A DNA stretch of 64,000 nt from Bacillota bacterium (GCA_021841025.1 JAKBWA010000010.1:1-64000), one strand, 5' to 3'; positions 11,745 to 40,381 are shown, counted from the first letter of the stretch. Program-made: numbers and translations. Notes: a model not told the origin generated them from the letters alone.

Positions 11745-12407
11745 TTACCGTCCCATCACCAACAAATTTTTCATTGCCATAAGTCCCATTGGAGCAATAA
11801 ACATAATCAATACGTTAAGAAGCAAAAGTGCAGGTAGTATGGTTAGTAGAAGAGGATCCGACTGCTTTTTCAAAGCATCTTCAAGAGTCAATTGTTCTTC
11901 CATATCCCACGCCTGAGTGATGGCATCCTCAGCTTGTAACCCGTTTTGATAACCGTAAATCATCATGGTCGTTACCAAATCTGACTCGGGGCCAGGATAT
12001 TGTGTTCGAAAGCGAGTAAAAGCCCCTGAGTCAGAGTGATTTGTTCCTATAACTTTTGCGAGAGTCTCTATATCTACCCCAATCTCGGGAACGGCCACGA
12101 CAGCCTGATCCATGGCTTGCCAAAACGTCATTCCTGCACTCAAAAAGAACGCCATTGTTCTCCAAAATTTCACAATTGACCAGCGCTTTTTGCGTATCTG
12201 TTTACGACTTAAAGGACGGTTCCACAGCCCCATAACGCCGACGAGAATAGTCACACTTAACAACAAACCGCTTAACGGATGCGGCTGCCAAAACCACAAT
12301 GGCATCAACGCTATTCCGACCCAAAGCAGATTGTCTAAACGAAAACGAGATCCTCTAATGGAACTTGCGAATATGCCCGAGCATAGAGCCGCGATCATCG
12401 TATTCAT
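11745..12407 (-). CDS. TadC-like inner-membrane platform protein
   Basis: This 220-residue membrane protein has an N-terminal hydrophobic pair (about 1-65), a cytoplasmic helical T2SS-F-like domain (about 85-180: FLSAGMTFWQAMDQA, VTTMMIYGYQNG, ITQAWDMEEQ) and a C-terminal hydrophobic hairpin. The arrangement matches the second of the paired TadB/TadC platform proteins of Tad or archaellum-like pilus motors. Its ATG overlaps the tadB-like stop (ATGA, 12404-12407), so the two are translationally coupled. Confidence 0.72.
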   Translation of the reverse strand: MNTMIAALCSGIFASSIRGSRFRLDNLLWVGIALMPLWFWQPHPLSGLLLSVTILVGVMGLWNRPLSRKQIRKKRWSIVKFWRTMAFFLSAGMTFWQAMDQAVVAVPEIGVDIETLAKVIGTNHSDSGAFTRFRTQYPGPESDLVTTMMIYGYQNGLQAEDAITQAWDMEEQLTLEDALKKQSDPLLLTILPALLLLNVLIMFIAPMGLMAMKNLLVMGR

Positions 12408-13111
12408 GAAGAACTCTCGCCTCGGATGTGGGCAGAAAAAATTTGGAGCACAACAAAACTTACCAGAGCAATGAATGCCAGAACCAAATGGCCCAAGCCC
12501 GTGGTGGTCAATACCTGGTAAAATCCAGGAAGAGTAAAGGCAAACAAAAATAAGACAACATAAGGAGCAATCGCCAAAATGAGAACAGTCGATTCCAGAG
12601 CCATTTCATCGAGTCGCCGCTGAAATCGCCAACGCCGGGACAGCGCCATGTGTTTAACAACATGATCAATAATATCGTCCAATGCTCCTCCATACCGAGT
12701 GGTCAAGCGGGCCGATTGTGCAACCACATTCATAGCATCGGTATGCCACTTTGTTGCTAATTCATCGAGAACCAACTGCGGATCTGCATGAAGACGGATA
12801 CGAGAATCGGAGCGAACCACCTCCTCCAATGCAAAAGCCAGACTGCCTCTGGCTTTCAGCATACGTCTTAGACGTTGCAGGAACAATTCGGTTTCCTGGT
12901 CATCCAGTTCCGATTGTTGGCGTCTTAAGCGACTCGTCCAAAACGTATCCAATCCCCAAATGGTGATGAGAAATGCTATGGTAATACTGGGACTGGGAAT
13001 CAAAAAGGATCCCATGCTGGCCCACGGCAAAAACAAGGGCCGATGGGATGACAAAATGCTATTCACGCTGAATCCTAGTAGCCCGGCGCCTAAAATAACT
13101 GAACTATGCAT
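12404..13111 (-). CDS. TadB-like inner-membrane platform protein
   Basis: This protein of about 235 residues has N-terminal hydrophobic segments, a cytoplasmic T2SS-F domain (LKARGSLAFALEEVV, RYGGALDDIIDHV, RRWRFQRRLDEMALES) and two C-terminal membrane spans. It partners the CpaF ATPase and TadC-like protein in a pilus-type motor. I use the ATG at 13111: GGTGGGAG precedes it at proper spacing and it overlaps the cpaF stop by 8 nt (ATGCATAG). A longer in-frame form could begin at 13132. Confidence 0.75.
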   Translation of the reverse strand: MHSSVILGAGLLGFSVNSILSSHRPLFLPWASMGSFLIPSPSITIAFLITIWGLDTFWTSRLRRQQSELDDQETELFLQRLRRMLKARGSLAFALEEVVRSDSRIRLHADPQLVLDELATKWHTDAMNVVAQSARLTTRYGGALDDIIDHVVKHMALSRRWRFQRRLDEMALESTVLILAIAPYVVLFLFAFTLPGFYQVLTTTGLGHLVLAFIALVSFVVLQIFSAHIRGESSS

Positions 13112-14318
13112 CGAATTCTCCCACCTTAACAAATGCAGGTGCTTGGTCAGCTTGGTACTGCCAAATCACGTTCATATTGTTCCGAAACGGTTGCTGAATC
13201 GATTCGATCCGACGAACACCATCAGGATAACGACGAACATAGATAATGATATCGAGGGTTTCCTGGATTTGTGCAACAAGCTGGTCAAAAGGAATTCCCA
13301 GCTGGCGTCGAGAACACATCCGCGCCAGCCGAGAAATTGTATCCACACCCCCCGATTGGCTATGAACTGTCGAAAGGCTGCCTGGATGGCCCGTGGACAT
13401 CGCCTCAATTAATTCCATGGCCTCCTCACCCCGCACTTCGCCAACAATGATCCGATCCGGACGCATACGCAGGGCATTAATCACCAAATCATGAATCGAA
13501 TAATGCCGATGGGCCTCCAAGCTGACCGTGTTAGCATGATGCAGATTCAATTCCCGTACGTCTTCGATGGTAATCAAGCGTTCATCCGCACCAATCTCAG
13601 ACGTCAGAAGGCGAAGCAGCGACGTTTTTCCCGACCCCGCGCCGCCTGCGACCAAAATGTTACGCCTCTCGGCGATGAAAGTGGTGAGATCCTCCCACAA
13701 ATCCATACTGAAGGATCCGTGCAGCAAGTAATCGTCGAGACTGAGTGGCGCGTGCCGGGCCCTTCTGATAGTAATTGTCGGTTGCTCCGCCACCGGTGGC
13801 AAAACACAATGGATACGAGAACCGTCGACGAGTTGGGCATCACACACCGGCGATTCGGTATTCAGAACCCGGCCTGCTCGACTTGCCAGACGTTGAGCCA
13901 GAAGGGCAACTTCGTCGGGATTCTCAAAATTTTGTTTCACCTGATCAATGTGTCCATCTCGCTCGCAGAAAATGTGATCCGGACCGTTGACCATAATTTC
14001 AGTCACCCGGTTATCAGTGAGTAATCCATCCAAAGGCCCGAGACCTGTGAGCCGGTTGAGCAGCGAACGGCGGTATAACGTCATGGCGGCCACGTCCAAT
14101 CCTTCTTCCCCTATCACCTGGTTAATGGCTTCTTCCAATTTGTTCAGTCGTTCGCGATCCCACACCAAATGTCGCAATAATTCCGGATACTGGGATTGTA
14201 CAGTCTCTTGCCAGCGGTCTACGTACTGCCCCATGACCGTGCTTTCTTCTTGCGCATACCGCCCCCATACCGTGTCAGTCGTCTGGACATCATCGGGCTT
14301 CCAAGAATATTTGTTCAT
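13104..14318 (-). CDS. cpaF: CpaF/TadA-type secretion ATPase
   Basis: This protein of about 404 residues is a VirB11/CpaF family hexameric ATPase that powers Tad-type pili. It shows Walker [10 protein letters not shown] (about residue 225), Asp box IEDVRELNL, Walker [15 protein letters not shown], and the conserved [13 protein letters not shown]. The frame is open upstream to TTG 14426, but the ATG at 14318 has GAGGAGG 8 nt ahead, and residues read from the earlier start belong to a decayed DUF5615 toxin. The real protein therefore starts [10 protein letters not shown]. No pilin, prepilin peptidase or secretin gene is adjacent. Confidence 0.88.
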
Positions 14319-14354
14319 GACGTCGACCTCCTCATTCAGAGTGTCTTCATCATA

Positions 14355-14577
14355 CTGGAGGATTGTGCCACACAACCTGTCAGGACTGCTGCCATGGGGA
14401 TCAGGATCAAGATTCAGGGTCATCAAGATCCGCTATTTCGATTGACAAACACCCAGGAGAGTGTCATCAGCAATCCCGGCAATTAGATTCAGTATAGACC
14501 GTGTCTACATCGTAGCCAGCCTGATTCAACGTGCGCACCAGACTTACCGGCATATTCTCATTGAATTTGAAGAGCAT
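14355..14577 (-). pseudogene. Decayed DUF5615 (PIN-like, VapC45-type) toxin
   Basis: ATG 14577, one base after the DUF433 stop, begins MLFKFNENMPVSLVRTLNQA, the usual DUF5615 N-terminus except that the catalytic Asp of the x-D-E-N motif is Asn. This frame stops at 14467-14469. A one-base shift near 14490 restores LIAGIADDTLLGVCQSK, then a TAG, then RILMTLNLD and SPDRLCGTIL, which is the family's C-terminal half. So the gene has one frameshift, one nonsense codon, a lost catalytic residue and a missing 3' end where cpaF begins. It was once the toxin partner of the DUF433 antitoxin. Confidence 0.8.
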
Positions 14578-34519: not shown

Positions 34520-34909
34520 ATGCCCAAATATCAAACCGGCAAACATTTAGAGGCTTTTGTGCTGCTGCTTTTAACTCAACACCCCGATCACGGAGGCCAC
34601 CTTTTGTTGCGTCTATCTCAGGTCTTGCCCAAAGAATGGGCCCTTGATAGCGGCCGCATTTACCGCTTGTTACGAGAATTAGAAGATGCTGGATGCCTCG
34701 TTTCGGCATGGATGCAACAAAATGACACCGCTCCTGTTCGTCAGTATCAAATCACCCCGCAAGGCGCATCAAGGCTGGACCACTGGGCAGAGGAACTGGC
34801 CATTAAACAAAAATTGCTGTCCCAGTTTTTCACTTTATATCAAGACATCACGGCTTCATCTTCAACGGGCGAGTCATCCAACGCTTCCAAGACCCCCAAG
34901 ATGGGGTAG
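34520..34909 (+). CDS. PadR-like winged-helix transcription regulator
   Basis: This 129-residue protein has a PadR-type winged helix: FVLLLLTQHPDHGGHLLLRL, SGRIYRLLRELEDAGCLVS and RQYQITPQGASRLDHWAEEL. The C-terminal helix would form the dimer interface, and a Ser/Thr-rich tail follows. ATG 34520 has GAGGAGGGAG upstream. Its 3' end overlaps the convergent CpaE-like gene by 62 nt (34848-34909), so the tail is read on both strands. Target genes are unknown. Confidence 0.82.
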   Translation: MPKYQTGKHLEAFVLLLLTQHPDHGGHLLLRLSQVLPKEWALDSGRIYRLLRELEDAGCLVSAWMQQNDTAPVRQYQITPQGASRLDHWAEELAIKQKLLSQFFTLYQDITASSSTGESSNASKTPKMG

Positions 34910-35810
34910 GCGGGAAAGTCTCCGTTGAAAGGGTCAGTACAGGCAGTCCTAAGCGTCCAGCCACGGATGCTGCAGACTCTCCCAAAAGCCACAAGTCACA
35001 ACGAGGATTAAAATCCTTAATTAATGCCAAACCTCTTCGAATAATTTCGTCATTTCCTTCCTCTTCAACATAAACGATCCCAGCAGATAAAGCGGTAATA
35101 ATCAGAGCGGACACCGGATGACGAATATTGAGACCCAAATCCCAAACCATCCAGTTGGCTTTATGCGCCAAAGTTTCTTTCACATCTGCCATTTCGGGTT
35201 CATACAAGATGGGCATCCATGGCATGGGCGCGGGTATCACCCATCCCCATGGCGCTGTTTTGAGAACAAGTTTTGCAAACAGGTAATTGCTGTCCCGGAT
35301 GCCATGTCCCCATAACCTGGTCACTAATGCTTGATCCCAGTCAAAGTCAACCACCACCCCTTTTTGATAGCGAGACTGCATGTTCTTTATGAGTGATTGC
35401 CACATGATTAACCGGCGGCTGGTTCCCGACGCAGACCACATAAACCAGCGTGAAGGCATGCTGTCAGGAATCAAAGTTTGAATGGGTTTGAGCCAGTGGC
35501 GCAAATCATCCGGCCCCATTTCTCTATTCCATACCTCGGCATTTTTTGTCAGCATACTCCCCCATTTTTCTTCTGTGGTCCAAAAAATCCAGCGACATTC
35601 ACTGTGGCTTTTTACCGTCTCGACAATTCTTTCCATAGGAACATGACGCGTAATCCGTTCTCCTAACAGAATTTTGCGAGCGGTCCGTGCTAAATCCTCT
35701 ACTTCTTCCCAAGAATGCACAATGCTGACGGATTCCATTTCCGCATCCTGAGACACATGGTCTCGAATGAAATCCTCAATACCCTTATGTTCGACCGCGA
35801 CGACAATCAT
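34848..35810 (-). CDS. CpaE/MinD-like protein with a degenerate P-loop
   Basis: This 320-residue protein resembles CpaE: a receiver-like N-terminal domain (about 1-115) followed by a MinD/ParA-like domain. Where Walker A (SxxGGxGKTT) should be, it reads SASGTSRRLIMW, so the P-loop Gly-Lys-Thr is lost. Later ParA-like landmarks remain (VVVDFDW, WMVWDLGL). It is the last gene of the T4SS-like operon, overlapping the SAF gene by 4 nt. Localisation or scaffolding without ATP hydrolysis is inferred. Identification is by order and architecture, not strong motifs. Confidence 0.55.
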   Translation of the reverse strand: MIVVAVEHKGIEDFIRDHVSQDAEMESVSIVHSWEEVEDLARTARKILLGERITRHVPMERIVETVKSHSECRWIFWTTEEKWGSMLTKNAEVWNREMGPDDLRHWLKPIQTLIPDSMPSRWFMWSASGTSRRLIMWQSLIKNMQSRYQKGVVVDFDWDQALVTRLWGHGIRDSNYLFAKLVLKTAPWGWVIPAPMPWMPILYEPEMADVKETLAHKANWMVWDLGLNIRHPVSALIITALSAGIVYVEEEGNDEIIRRGLALIKDFNPRCDLWLLGESAASVAGRLGLPVLTLSTETFPPTPSWGSWKRWMTRPLKMKP

Positions 35811-36343
35811 GATCGAATCCCCACCAGGGACACCCTTCCGTGTATACTTAGCCTCTCAAAAGTCATGGCCTGGGTCCACGACATCGCGACGATGAGAGGC
35901 CCGCCTGATCCTGTAAGACCTGATGGAGAAGGTGTGGAAACCACACTAACCGGCCCCGAAGCCCAAATATGTCCCGAGGACGGAATCACCAAAACGTGAA
36001 CCTTTTGGCCAACATGGGCCACGGCTGTCGCCTCGGGAATTGCCACTAAGACTCCTTTTGCCGCCGACAGTTTGTGACGTACAAGCAACCCCGACAAGAG
36101 TGTTTGCCCTTTGCTCACGCCAAGGCGCAGATAACCCGGATGCCAGTTTTTGGCTTGAGAAGACGTCAGAGGAACCCAATTGACATCACCACGACTCACA
36201 TAACTTCCCGCTGCGAGGGATTTTTTCACGACCGGCACCTTCGGATCCGGATGTAACAGCGGCAAAACGCTCAATATTGTGTAAACAACACCAGCCACTA
36301 GCATCCCCCATACGGCGGATGTTTGCAGTTTCAATGATTTCAC
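35807..36343 (-). CDS. CpaB-like SAF-domain membrane protein
   Basis: This 178-residue protein has one N-terminal span (about 10-32) and a SAF domain (about 38-100: VPVVKKSLAAGSYVSRGDV, LGVSKGQTLLSGLLVR). This layout is that of CpaB/RcpC, the Tad-pilus assembly protein facing the cell exterior. It lies 60 nt after the VirB4-like gene and overlaps the CpaE-like gene. Finding a CpaB-like protein inside a VirB operon is unusual. Confidence 0.72.
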   Translation of the reverse strand: MKSLKLQTSAVWGMLVAGVVYTILSVLPLLHPDPKVPVVKKSLAAGSYVSRGDVNWVPLTSSQAKNWHPGYLRLGVSKGQTLLSGLLVRHKLSAAKGVLVAIPEATAVAHVGQKVHVLVIPSSGHIWASGPVSVVSTPSPSGLTGSGGPLIVAMSWTQAMTFERLSIHGRVSLVGIRS

Positions 36344-36403
36344 CCTGATCGCCCTTCTTCCCTTGTTCTCTCCTGACTGATCGAAAAATAGCTTTCTTTG
36401 CTG

Positions 36404-38089
36404 CTAAGAACCTATATTCGCAGACATCTGACTGAGAAGTCTGTCTTCCTCGGGGGAAGCCACCACGCGCAAAGGCACATGCTCGTCCCCAACCATGAGC
36501 AATCCTTCCCCTATATGCGCTTGCGCGATTTGCCTAACTTCCCCCTCATGAAGACGCAAGTGCTCCTGGATTTGATGGATACTTTCGGGATGTTGCTTGA
36601 GCAGCATCACAATCGGTGCATTTCTCAGACACACTTCTGCAGCTTGGGAACGGACAAAATCATTCATGTCCTGAGTCAGCAGTGACAATGCGGTTCCCCA
36701 TTTACGAGCTCGTCTAAATAGCGATTCAAGGTATTGGGCAGACTCATTGTCCGTTAACAAATGCCATGCCTCGTCAAAAATTATCAGCCGCCGCAATCCC
36801 TGTTTCGTCTCCCTGGTCAGCCACTCGCTCAGCGCCAGATAAGCCGCGTTTTTCATGGTGGTGGTTAAATGGCTCAAGTCAAAGACCTGAAAATGAGGAT
36901 TGGCAGAAGTGTCCCTAGTATTTCCGGTGATCATGCGCCATCTGCTGATCACCATCCTCAATTGCTCGGCCAACTCAGGGTCTCGCGCATTGATATCACT
37001 CAAAACATCTTCGATGTCGAGAAATTTAGGCTCAACCTGCCATCTGTCGTTCTGATTAGTTTTCCATTTAGTCCATAAAACAGGAGGCAGCACCATTTTC
37101 AAGCGGTGTTCATATTCCGGAATTAGCCTGGCCAAAAAGCGGATTAAAAAATCACTGTCGTGTTCCCAGTCTCGAGTGTCCATCATCATTTTCAAAGGAT
37201 CATAGGGAAATGAACCATTAAGCTGTCCAACCGCCCAAATGTGCGCACCGATTTTTTCTAGACCTTTGTACTCCCCTTCGGGATCAATAATGTACACCGG
37301 TAACTCGCTGTAGCGTGATCGCAGTGCTTCCAATTTGGCTGCATAGCTTTTGCCCGCACCAGACCAGGCTATAGTAATCGAGTGCGGCGAGGGCATAACA
37401 AACCGGTTGACCAGCACAAGCGAGCGATTTTGAGGATTGATACCCCATAAAATCCCTTGCGGATGAATAATCTCTTCCGACACTACGGGAAATAATGTGG
37501 CCCACGTGTCACTTTCCATCTCCCTAACTCTCCCGGGAGACTCACCGAAAGGAAGCGTCCATTTCAACCCATCTATGTGCTGAAAATGCAATGGTCTTAG
37601 ACTGATCAACAGACTTTCACAAACGTTCTGCAGCATGTCCGTCGCATCATTTAACTCCGCCAAAGTTGAGGCCCATAACGTCATGTGCAAACTCGTTTCC
37701 AGCATTCTGGCATCGCCTCGGGTTAGTTTCTGCCGGATACGCTCGGCATCCTCAATAGCTGTTTCCATCCTTGGATCGGCCAATCCTCCCTGAGCTTTGA
37801 TAGCATTATCCAGCCCCCGGTTCCATAAAAGATGCCGCTTCATCGAACGCAAAACGACTTGAGGCGGAAGCGGCCCCTGATAAAAAGCGATGGTCAAGGG
37901 ATAAGGAAACCGCAACAGTGAATCAAACCATCCGGGGTAAACTTGGCGGGGATAACCAACCACCATGAAAGAACGTGTCCACCGATTGCCGACCTGCAGT
38001 TGTCTGGGTTGAACGTCGATATAATCCGGCCAAATCACATCAACATTGTGAAGAAGCCGCCGCTGTTTGAGATGTCTCCTTAAACCCAA
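36404..38089 (-). CDS. VirB4/TraE-like conjugation-type ATPase
   Basis: This 561-residue ATPase has an N-terminal VirB4 region (SFMVVGYPRQVYPGWFDSLL, typical of Gram-positive VirB4) and a C-terminal RecA-like core with Walker A WSGAGKSYAA (about 242-251), IIDPEGEYKGL, Walker B LIIFDEAWHLL (about 435-445) and LTQDMNDFV. VirB4 energises pilin extraction and substrate transfer in type IV secretion. It overlaps the TraC-like gene by 10 nt. All core motifs are intact. Confidence 0.88.
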   Translation of the reverse strand: MGLRRHLKQRRLLHNVDVIWPDYIDVQPRQLQVGNRWTRSFMVVGYPRQVYPGWFDSLLRFPYPLTIAFYQGPLPPQVVLRSMKRHLLWNRGLDNAIKAQGGLADPRMETAIEDAERIRQKLTRGDARMLETSLHMTLWASTLAELNDATDMLQNVCESLLISLRPLHFQHIDGLKWTLPFGESPGRVREMESDTWATLFPVVSEEIIHPQGILWGINPQNRSLVLVNRFVMPSPHSITIAWSGAGKSYAAKLEALRSRYSELPVYIIDPEGEYKGLEKIGAHIWAVGQLNGSFPYDPLKMMMDTRDWEHDSDFLIRFLARLIPEYEHRLKMVLPPVLWTKWKTNQNDRWQVEPKFLDIEDVLSDINARDPELAEQLRMVISRWRMITGNTRDTSANPHFQVFDLSHLTTTMKNAAYLALSEWLTRETKQGLRRLIIFDEAWHLLTDNESAQYLESLFRRARKWGTALSLLTQDMNDFVRSQAAEVCLRNAPIVMLLKQHPESIHQIQEHLRLHEGEVRQIAQAHIGEGLLMVGDEHVPLRVVASPEEDRLLSQMSANIGS

Positions 38090-38670
38090 TCCACTTTCCC
38101 CCCTGGGACGCCTCCTTGGTCTTGTGCAAAACTCGCCTGCAAGAACTTGCGCGTGGCGTTTTCATCTAGAGTGCGGACTTGTATTCCCAACCCCTTTAAT
38201 CCCTGAGTCAAAATATCCACACGCCGCATAAGTTCTGACTCCGCCTCATCCCACATTAATTTTCGCGTCTGCTTATGTTTTCTTGTTTGAACACTGCGCC
38301 AGAACATGACAATATAAAATCGCCGTTTCACCAGGCGATTGACGCTCACGGTGTTGCGCAAAAACTGAATATAATCGCCCAAGGAGGGTCGCAAATGCGC
38401 TTCAATTGATTCTTCATGACTCTTAAGATCAGCCAGATATTCGTCCACGCGCAAAAAATCCGATCGCACCAATAATTGCACGGGAAAATTCAAGCCGTTG
38501 AGAAAGTTGGCATAGCCATTGATTAACTGTTCTTGTTCTTTGGGCGACCGTAAGGCAAAATTTATTGGCTGTGCTTCCAACATTCCCACCACGTAACGGT
38601 CTTTGTCCACGAGGCAAATACCCGGACCAATCTCGTGAATGGGAAACAGCTTATTCATATAGACGTCCAC
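38080..38670 (-). CDS. TraC-like accessory protein upstream of VirB4
   Basis: This protein of about 197 residues is soluble-looking. It shows PIHEIGPGICLVDKDRYVVG, NGYANFLNGLNFPVQLLVRS and RRFYIVMFW, a pattern I associate with the small protein encoded between PrgI and VirB4 in Gram-positive T4SS loci, similar to an N-terminal piece of TraC. GTG 38670 (VDVYMNKL) follows GAGAGGAG; the frame stays open to 38748. It overlaps the VirB4-like gene by 10 nt. Confidence 0.6.
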   Translation of the reverse strand: MDVYMNKLFPIHEIGPGICLVDKDRYVVGMLEAQPINFALRSPKEQEQLINGYANFLNGLNFPVQLLVRSDFLRVDEYLADLKSHEESIEAHLRPSLGDYIQFLRNTVSVNRLVKRRFYIVMFWRSVQTRKHKQTRKLMWDEAESELMRRVDILTQGLKGLGIQVRTLDENATRKFLQASFAQDQGGVPGGKVDWV

Positions 38671-38693
38671 TACACTTATCTCCTCTCTCGACT

Positions 38694-39086
38694 TTAGGGT
38701 AAATAGCGCCGGGGCCGAAAAATAAATCCTACAATGATTCCCGCCCACTGGGGCAAGGTTCGAGATTCAATCCGCACTGCGGCCAAGACAAATCCGGCGA
38801 TCAAAATGACTGCACACAAGGTATATACCGCAGACACAGACCAGTCTTTTTGGTGCCAGATGACTATATCGAGACCAACAGCCGCCGCTGGCCATATCAA
38901 ATCCTGAATGCGCATGCCGCCTAATATCGGGGGATCCGTGTCCAGAGGAACAGCCACAACCTTATACGTATCGTGAAATTTCGTCGTCTCCCTCACCTCC
39001 TCATGAACTTTGTCAAACCTCAAAAGCCCAGGCATCTCGCTGTTCGCTTGCTTTCGCCACCCCTCAGGGCCCAACGGCACCAACAA
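38694..39086 (-). CDS. PrgI/VirB3-like membrane protein
   Basis: This protein of up to 130 residues has VPLDTDPPILGGMRIQDLIW followed by two hydrophobic spans (about 68-115), the layout of PrgI/VirB3 proteins that anchor VirB4. The start is uncertain: the frame opens at 39086 inside the VirB6-like gene, ATG 39035 is an alternative, and GAGGAGG near 38998 suggests a shorter form. It lies directly before the TraC-like gene, as PrgI does elsewhere. Confidence 0.65.
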   Translation of the reverse strand: MLVPLGPEGWRKQANSEMPGLLRFDKVHEEVRETTKFHDTYKVVAVPLDTDPPILGGMRIQDLIWPAAAVGLDIVIWHQKDWSVSAVYTLCAVILIAGFVLAAVRIESRTLPQWAGIIVGFIFRPRRYLP

Positions 39087-39864
39087 TACGCCTTAATTGC
39101 CCTGGCAGTTTGACGAGGTAATATAAAAGCCCGATTTCTTCGATTTGACTCATGATACTGCCGGAATCCTGATTGCCGAGCATGTGGATAAAGAGATAAA
39201 ACGCCATGGCTTGAACGCTTTGAATGAAGATCGCGATCAAAAGCTCCTTGAGAATCCGCAATAAGGCAGGGGACCTTTGACTTTGAGTCATCCAAAACAA
39301 AGCAAACCAAGGAATGAGCGATAAAAGCACAACGATTTCGACATCCCTGACCACGTAGTAAACACCAAGGATTGCTACCAATACCACAATCGTCACCGTG
39401 AGCACAATGTCCGTAATAGGATCTGTCAACAAGGCCAGATGGGAAGCGAAGTGAAAAATTTGGGGAGATGTCGTTAATAAAGCGGCCACGACTTGATTAT
39501 TAAACAGCAAAAGTCCTTGGACCAAAGGCAGCGAAAACAAGGCCCAAATAACCTGAATTAAGGCACGATGCAAAATGTGAATTGGCGAAAAGCCCCATCC
39601 TTGCACGTTTAATTCCGGTAATTGAGCCTGAATCACCGCAATGATAAAAAATACAGTGGTTGCGGCAATAGCCAAATTTCTGCTGAAATCGAACAGAAGG
39701 TAGGCTTGAGACGGCAACTGAAACGGATAGAAGACCGTATGCTTTAAGATCTCTTTGCTAAAGCCAATCAGCGCCTCGTTCAGTCCTGCACCCAACCACG
39801 ACAGAACACTGTGTAGGGGATTCAATCCGAAAACCGTCGAATGGGAAATACTAGCTTGCCGCAT
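39064..39864 (-). CDS. VirB6/TrbL-like polytopic membrane protein
   Basis: This 266-residue protein has six or more hydrophobic spans, including FFIIAVIQA, DIVLTVTIVVLVAILGVYY and VVLLSLIPWFALFW, with an N-terminal region resembling TrbL. VirB6/TrbL forms the inner-membrane channel. It overlaps the VirB2-like gene by 14 nt and the PrgI-like gene by 23 nt. The family call is from topology and order. Confidence 0.65.
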   Translation of the reverse strand: MRQASISHSTVFGLNPLHSVLSWLGAGLNEALIGFSKEILKHTVFYPFQLPSQAYLLFDFSRNLAIAATTVFFIIAVIQAQLPELNVQGWGFSPIHILHRALIQVIWALFSLPLVQGLLLFNNQVVAALLTTSPQIFHFASHLALLTDPITDIVLTVTIVVLVAILGVYYVVRDVEIVVLLSLIPWFALFWMTQSQRSPALLRILKELLIAIFIQSVQAMAFYLFIHMLGNQDSGSIMSQIEEIGLLYYLVKLPGQLRRIVGAVGP

Positions 39865-40084
39865 ATTGGAGAACCTGACGGATCACATCCACTAGCAAAA
39901 TCAAAACCAAACCCGTTGCTGCGCGAATCATAAGTTCTTTCGCTGCTTGAACACTGCGCGGGCTTTGTGCAATCATTAACCGAATGCCTCCATAAACCAT
40001 GATCAGAGAAAACAAACCGCCGGCAATATCCACCAAGAGTGCGGTCAGTTTGGTTATCAACGACAAGACATGTGCGGTTGGCAT
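39851..40084 (-). CDS. VirB2/TrbC-like small membrane protein (pilin-like)
   Basis: This 77-residue protein has two hydrophobic spans (about 8-33 and 55-72) separated by a basic loop (QSPRSVQAAKELMIRA), the hairpin topology of VirB2/TrbC pilins and of Gram-positive VirB2-like subunits. No long signal peptide is present. ATG 40084 follows AAAGGACAC. It is the first gene of the operon. Confidence 0.62.
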   Translation of the reverse strand: MPTAHVLSLITKLTALLVDIAGGLFSLIMVYGGIRLMIAQSPRSVQAAKELMIRAATGLVLILLVDVIRQVLQYAAS

Positions 40085-40140
40085 AAAGTGTCCTTTCGTT
40101 CAATGTATTCAGAAAACATGGGATCCCCCGGATCTATCTG

Positions 40141-40233
40141 AAACGCTGGCAGGCCCATTAGCAGTCATCTCCCCAAAAGAAAAGCCTGTCAGTTTGCTAA
40201 TTCTACCTCGGAACTTGCTGGCTTGCTGCGTTT
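40141..40233 (-). ncRNA. Possible structured leader of the T4SS-like operon (interlocking stems)
   Basis: Reading the minus strand, AAACGC (40233-40228) is complementary to GCGTTT (40146-40141). Inside, TTAGCA (40200-40195) matches TGCTAA (40163-40158), and CTGACAGGC (40192-40184) matches GCCTGCCAG (40154-40146) with one mismatch. The order a-b-a'-b' would form a pseudoknot closed by the outer stem. It lies 56 nt upstream of the first gene. It does not match a riboswitch class I can name. Confidence 0.35.
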
Positions 40234-40318
40234 GTCTCATGTCAAGCCCAAGCGCCGGATATATCATAGCGAAGAATTTTGTCAGGCTTCCTGTCGAATT
40301 TCTAGGGATTTGAGCGTC

Positions 40319-40351
40319 AAAAAAAGACCATGGCCTTGAGGCCCATGGTCT
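40319..40351 (-). terminator. Terminator of the thioesterase gene
   Basis: On the minus strand AGACCATGG and CCATGGTCT pair over 9 bp with an inner GGC/GCC extension, and seven T follow (40325-40319). Confidence 0.88.
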
Positions 40352-40381
40352 CTCTTCTTGGCATTGCCCATTTGCAAGACG

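Follow-up and report, generated by a model that had tools for sequence, protein, structure and literature searches.

A chromosomal hybrid of type IV secretion and Tad pilus genes, possibly a DNA-exchange machine, in a Sulfobacillus-like bacterium and its relatives

The 64,000-nucleotide stretch of DNA analyzed here (the window; GCA_021841025.1, JAKBWA010000010.1:1-64000) belongs to a Bacillota genome that is Sulfobacillus-like by synteny and by its relatives, Sulfobacillus benefaciens, S. thermotolerans, and S. harzensis. Its minus strand carries a ten-gene unit, well supported as an architecture by sequence comparison, in which the core of a type IV secretion system (T4SS) is joined to the motor of a Tad pilus. 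The reading that we favor, with slightly better than even confidence, is that this is a domesticated, vertically inherited machine that exchanges DNA and has replaced ComEC-type transformation in the lineages that bear it. Relatives were drawn from families f1 to f48 of the window's class, the window itself belonging to f1. Its order is represented by 42 genomes, the other machine-bearing groups by 17 (f21 to f26) and 8 (f34 and f35), and the rest of the class by 87. The window's own genome (G000) amounts to 3.39 Mb in 118 contigs and is 97% complete; the absence of a gene from such draft genomes can reflect incompleteness.

Seven of the genes, most of them overlapping or nearly so, lie at 34848-40084. 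The first (39851-40084) encodes a 77-amino-acid, two-helix pilin of the VirB2/CedA1 type (PF18895 T4SS_pilin, 1.6e-9) that is 57 to 99% identical across the order. Its AlphaFold2 (AF2) model is a helical hairpin with a predicted local distance difference test (pLDDT) score of 90, and because a Foldseek search with that model returned nothing meaningful, the identification rests on the PF18895 match and gene context; a plasmid search with the pilin sequence found no match. There follow a 266-amino-acid polytopic membrane protein resembling VirB6/TrbL (39064-39864; PF19597 TrbL_4 in 16 of 22 orthologues, best 6.4e-8), a VirB3/PrgI-like membrane protein (38694-39086; PF12666 PrgI in 8 of 18 orthologues, best 4.5e-5), a TrsD-like protein corresponding to a separate VirB4 N-terminal-like domain (38080-38748; NF041427 TrsD, 4.1e-6), and the 561-amino-acid VirB4 ATPase (36404-38089; NF045971 CD1110-type VirB4, 4.9e-62). 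Starts are those of the open reading frame (ORF) calls, and the start codons of the VirB3/PrgI-like and TrsD-like genes are uncertain. Single-sequence searches name the pilin, TrsD, and VirB4, the last two with scores under the curated cutoffs of their families, while VirB6, VirB3/PrgI, and the SAF protein described below, which matched little as single sequences, were named by scanning orthologues. VirB4 has a Walker A motif (GAGKS) and a Walker B motif (DEAW) whose residues are invariant in the family, and it also matches the solved VirB4 structures 4ag5 and 4ag6 (4e-36). VirB4, VirB3, and VirB6 homologues are thus encoded together, as in a T4SS. In several members of the genus, a stretch with the pattern ACAGGAA...CTATGAT upstream of the pilin gene (window positions 40085-40380) is conserved and may be a shared promoter.

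The remaining two genes of the block and three others make up the Tad module. A SAF-domain protein resembling CpaB/RcpC (35807-36343; PF08666 SAF in 15 of 21 orthologues, best 3.7e-7) is followed by a CpaE/TadZ-like protein (34848-35810) with receiver-like and ParA/MinD-like domains. The latter assignment is based on predicted structure: the AF2 model (pLDDT 85.5) has as its top Foldseek match the two-domain protein 3fkq from Eubacterium rectale, which we take to be a TadZ structure and which aligns over the whole length. VIA-align placed residues 119-294 in the ParA/MinD fold (Z 13.8); its best rows were all single ParA/MinD-type domains, with 3fkq not among them, and a Protein Data Bank sequence search with the family profile gave no convincing relative. 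The P-loop of this protein has been lost in f1, the window included, while f2 keeps a GGVGTTT-type motif. At 13104-14426 lies a 440-amino-acid ATPase of the CpaF/TadA/VirB11 superfamily (PF00437, 1.9e-44), matched in 39 of the order's 42 genomes. It is followed by two inner-membrane platform proteins that we identify by position and weak T2SSF similarity: a TadB-like protein (12404-13132), which follows CpaF throughout the order and has no Pfam match by itself, and a TadC-like protein (11745-12407), conserved in position after TadB, with a match to PF00482 T2SSF (0.0044) below the cutoff.

In most of the order, represented by other genera, CpaF, TadB, and TadC directly follow TadZ. In the window's genus, they lie on the same strand about 20 kb downstream of it, beyond mainly cobalamin-type and other metabolic genes. 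Since CpaF is displaced in the same orientation, 24 to 32 kb from VirB4, in genus relatives as well, the operon was probably split once within the genus, and the two blocks together form the ten-gene hybrid. With SAF and TadZ, the three displaced genes complete a Tad motor, and the CpaFs of the hybrids form one clade (support, 99/99). The sequence-only reading had proposed a T4SS-Tad hybrid of seven genes, assigned as VirB2-, VirB6-, PrgI/VirB3-, TraC-, VirB4-, SAF-, and CpaE-like. Family matches, supplemented by AF2 and Foldseek for the CpaE-like protein, agree with those assignments, the fourth protein matching TrsD, and the small membrane proteins, which might have turned out to be unrelated to T4SSs, matched T4SS families. 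The hybrid idea itself is strengthened because CpaF, TadB, and TadC belong to the unit, whose extent had been underestimated by these three genes.

On inspection, neither an Flp prepilin nor a prepilin peptidase nor TadE/G was recognized in the order's unit. A separate canonical Tad locus is present in G000 (L181; G000:C13:67000-86000), with an Flp-like pilin, CpaB, CpaE, CpaF, TadB, and TadC, so the hybrid's Tad module is a different one; apart from the ATPase of this canonical locus, G000 showed no further clear pilus ATPase. A plain Tad pilus was considered as an account of the hybrid and dropped. The downstream part of L181 also encodes a further CpaE-like protein and one resembling TadE. 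At the end of another contig (G000:C66:13229-13513) lies a 96-amino-acid fragment that is 85% identical to the window's CpaF and may represent a second copy or admixture from a related strain.

By sequence comparison, the locus is a fixed, vertically inherited part of the chromosome and not an integrative and conjugative element (ICE). VirB4 occurs in 40 of the 42 genomes of the order, with identity falling with kinship; the exceptions are G017 and G041, the latter an incomplete genome (71%). The order of the seven genes is the same in essentially all 40 genomes, bar truncations at contig ends, and this recurrence argues against a chance assembly. Upstream, gatB, rlmD, and an APC transporter gene are neighbors in most genomes of the order. 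The order's VirB4s form one clade with a support of 100, outside which the mobile VirB4s of these genomes lie, and VirB4 distances track those of gatB (rho = 0.80) about as those of rlmD do (rho = 0.82). Within the genus, the ratio of nonsynonymous to synonymous substitution rates is 0.01 to 0.23 where synonymous divergence could be estimated, far below 1 and indicative of purifying selection. These results bear out the earlier proposal of a chromosomal pilus or secretion machine set among housekeeping genes rather than a conjugative element: an integrase, relaxase, and coupling protein just outside the block were looked for, and the flanks proved to be housekeeping genes shared by relatives. 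What would mark a conjugative element, namely, a relaxase with the T4SS, an integrase or other mobility genes, and a patchy distribution, gives way here to a locus that is order-wide, largely syntenic, and monophyletic. The reported lack of a relaxase, VirD4, cell wall hydrolase, or integrase nearby also holds for the window, in which none was recognized on inspection of the larger ORFs. Its scope needed correction, as a VirD4-like gene paired with a Replic_Relax-like gene does exist elsewhere in G000; a genome-wide search of G000 for PF03432, the one relaxase family sought, found no match.

The VirD4-like protein, of about 511 amino acids, is encoded on contig C103 (PF02534, 3.7e-10, above the cutoff), and the Replic_Relax-like gene comes after it (PF13814, 7.9e-5, just under the cutoff). 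In the six genomes looked at, the two genes stay paired, close to pmm and a minC-like gene. VirD4-like proteins were found in 35/42 genomes of the order, 17/17 of f21 to f26, 2/2 of f34, and 2/6 of f35 but in only 3 of 80 ComEC-positive genomes. This unlinked protein is the predicted coupling protein of the T4SS. In relatives from f21, f34, and f35, the gene right after VirB4 encodes single-stranded DNA-binding protein (SSB), and an SSB gene lies nearby in f24. In one locus (L158, G082:C232), VirB3, TrsD, and VirB4 are apparently fused in a 903-amino-acid ORF, after which come genes for SSB, a TadZ whose P-loop is intact, CpaF, and TadB-like proteins.

Most bacteria have ComEC, and we know of no general replacement for it. 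In the order, its core domain (PF03772) was found in none of the 42 genomes, some of them near-complete in one to three contigs; nor was it found in any of the 17 of f21 to f26 or the 8 of f34 and f35, versus 80 of the 87 other genomes of the class that have it. VirB4 shows the opposite distribution, being present in 40/42, 17/17, and 8/8 of these groups (65 of 67) versus 7 of the 87 others. Eleven of the 12 families without any ComEC have VirB4, and the twelfth consists of a single genome that is 70% complete. Because the lineages bearing the machine lost ComEC, the machine may be their route of DNA exchange.

From these sequences we infer a single machine composed of these parts, one that makes a filament and moves DNA. 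TadZ would position it, and CpaF with TadB and TadC, along with VirB4 with VirB3 and TrsD, would extend and retract a filament built of the VirB2-type pilin, for which the SAF protein would serve as a collar spanning the wall. Together with the VirD4-like protein, VirB6 and VirB4 would pass single-stranded chromosomal DNA between neighboring sibling cells, by export, import, or both, and DNA exchange and repair would be the machine's purpose.

The strongest pointers to DNA are the VirD4-like/Replic_Relax pair, the SSB neighbors in relatives, and the complementarity with ComEC. These, together with archaeal and Micrococcus luteus precedents discussed below, lead us to prefer DNA exchange to adhesion or protein secretion. 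Several considerations weigh on the other side. Protein secretion and adhesive pili are other known uses of T4SSs. Having lost its P-loop in the window's family, the TadZ-like protein may be only a scaffold. Because the VirD4-like gene is unlinked, its partnership with the T4SS is read from co-occurrence alone, and in the window's order SSB stands outside the hybrid operon. DprA, which handles incoming single-stranded DNA in transformation, is mostly lost too (12/67 in the machine-bearing groups versus 78/87 in the others). Finally, the ComEC, VirB4, and DprA counts are not independent, since families may share one loss, and the ComEC/VirB4 pattern may reflect few evolutionary events across f1 to f3, f21 to f26, and f34 and f35.

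A filament that attaches cells to minerals and to each other without transporting DNA, comparable to the role proposed for the Bartonella Trw T4SS, is an unlikely but credible explanation. Few components are as conserved as the pilin, Tad pili are adhesive, and G000 lacks a PF03432 relaxase, all of which would suit such a pilus. Yet G000 already has a canonical Tad locus, complete with Flp-like pilin; VirB4, VirB6, and TrsD are under constraint; the unlinked VirD4-like/Replic_Relax pair is kept; SSB stands beside VirB4 in relatives; and adhesion does not account for the ComEC pattern. Export of effectors into the medium or into other microbes, with the VirD4-like protein as receptor, seems less probable still. 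The conservation of that protein would fit, as would the export of proteins by many T4SSs and the use of a related T4SS core by Patescibacteria in epibiotic growth (PMC12102498). However, the conserved block showed neither effector nor immunity genes, the partner of the VirD4-like gene belongs to a DNA-related family, Replic_Relax, and SSB genes are neighbors in relatives. As for a decaying or still mobile ICE or plasmid remnant, all T4SS parts ultimately derive from conjugation-type systems, and one f3 genome (G008) has a second, broken tandem copy. We consider this very improbable and dropped it, contradicted as it is by order-wide vertical inheritance, conserved housekeeping neighbors, purifying selection, and the lack of a recognized integrase or relaxase nearby.

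Returning to DNA exchange, the closest parallels are archaeal. The Ced system of Sulfolobales and the Ted system of Thermoproteales are relaxase-free chromosomal T4SS derivatives. In Sulfolobales, Ced is paired with a separate type IV pilus system, Ups, and it moves chromosomal DNA in concert with such a system (PMC9905601, PMC11868833). Like them, the hybrid is chromosomal, lacks a recognized relaxase, is vertically inherited, and encodes VirB2, VirB4, and VirB6 homologues. CedA1 is unprocessed, and no signal peptide is obvious in the window's pilin; a ParA/MinD-family gene, comparable to the TadZ-like gene here, is part of Ted loci (PMC9905601, PMC11868833). The hybrid differs in being bacterial, in keeping VirB3/PrgI, TrsD, and an unlinked VirD4-like protein, in having the Tad motor (CpaF, TadB, and TadC) within the unit, and in that no HerA or Rad50 was recognized next to it. 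The MPF_FATA-related T4SSs of Patescibacteria are likewise chromosomal and mostly relaxase-free, with a VirB2-VirB3-TrsD-VirB4-VirB6 set and a separate TrsD, but their VirB4 belongs to a different clade, and the parts of the source consulted describe no Tad module at their T4SS locus (PMC12102498). Conjugative MPF_FATA systems of Gram-positive plasmids and ICEs share PrgI, TrsD, and CD1110-type VirB4; unlike the hybrid, they have a relaxase, a linked coupling protein, and a cell wall hydrolase (pL15, for example) and generally no VirB2 pilin (PMC12102498). The ComB system of Helicobacter pylori is a T4SS without a relaxase that serves DNA uptake (reviewed in PMC12857230); it works with ComEC and without VirD4, whereas the present genome lacks ComEC and has a VirD4-like protein. 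In M. luteus, tad genes are used for transformation (PMC4322843). With the Tad (Flp) pilus, the hybrid shares SAF/CpaB-, TadZ-, CpaF-, TadB-, and TadC-like proteins in that order, but its pilin is of the VirB2 type.

The joining of T4SS and Tad genes is broader than the window's order, as other T4SS loci of the class carry CpaF near VirB4. In f24 and f25, VirB4, SAF or TadZ, CpaF, and TadB/TadC-like genes share this arrangement at a chromosomal site next to metG and ksgA, the SAF match being seen in G091 and G097. The CpaF tree did not show a single origin of all such hybrids. Among plasmid relatives of VirB4, those of pL15 and Pontibacillus have no Tad module at the T4SS, and on an Embleya plasmid, a canonical Tad cluster that looks like a separate unit lies about 10 kb away from the T4SS. 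A literature search, with most subscription journals outside its reach, found no published description of such a hybrid. Tentatively, and with somewhat less than even confidence, we suggest that in a large Bacillota group an ancient T4SS-Tad chimera took over exchange from ComEC/DprA and became fixed in the chromosome as a bacterial counterpart of Ced with motor and channel in one operon. If so, bacteria, like archaea, would have a sex-like exchange of DNA through a domesticated T4SS; a T4SS pilin would work with a Tad extension-retraction motor, which bears on how T4SS pili retract; and acidophiles used in biomining would gain a genetics.

Three apparently mobile T4SS loci also carry CpaE-, CpaF-, or Tad-like genes near VirB4 (L166, G083:C72; L165, G130:C1; L195, G098:C83). 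In the f3 genome mentioned above (L057, G008:C1:1592000-1611999), the second copy comprises the whole hybrid operon and adjoins an intact one, with VirB4, TrsD, and other genes of the broken copy in pieces.
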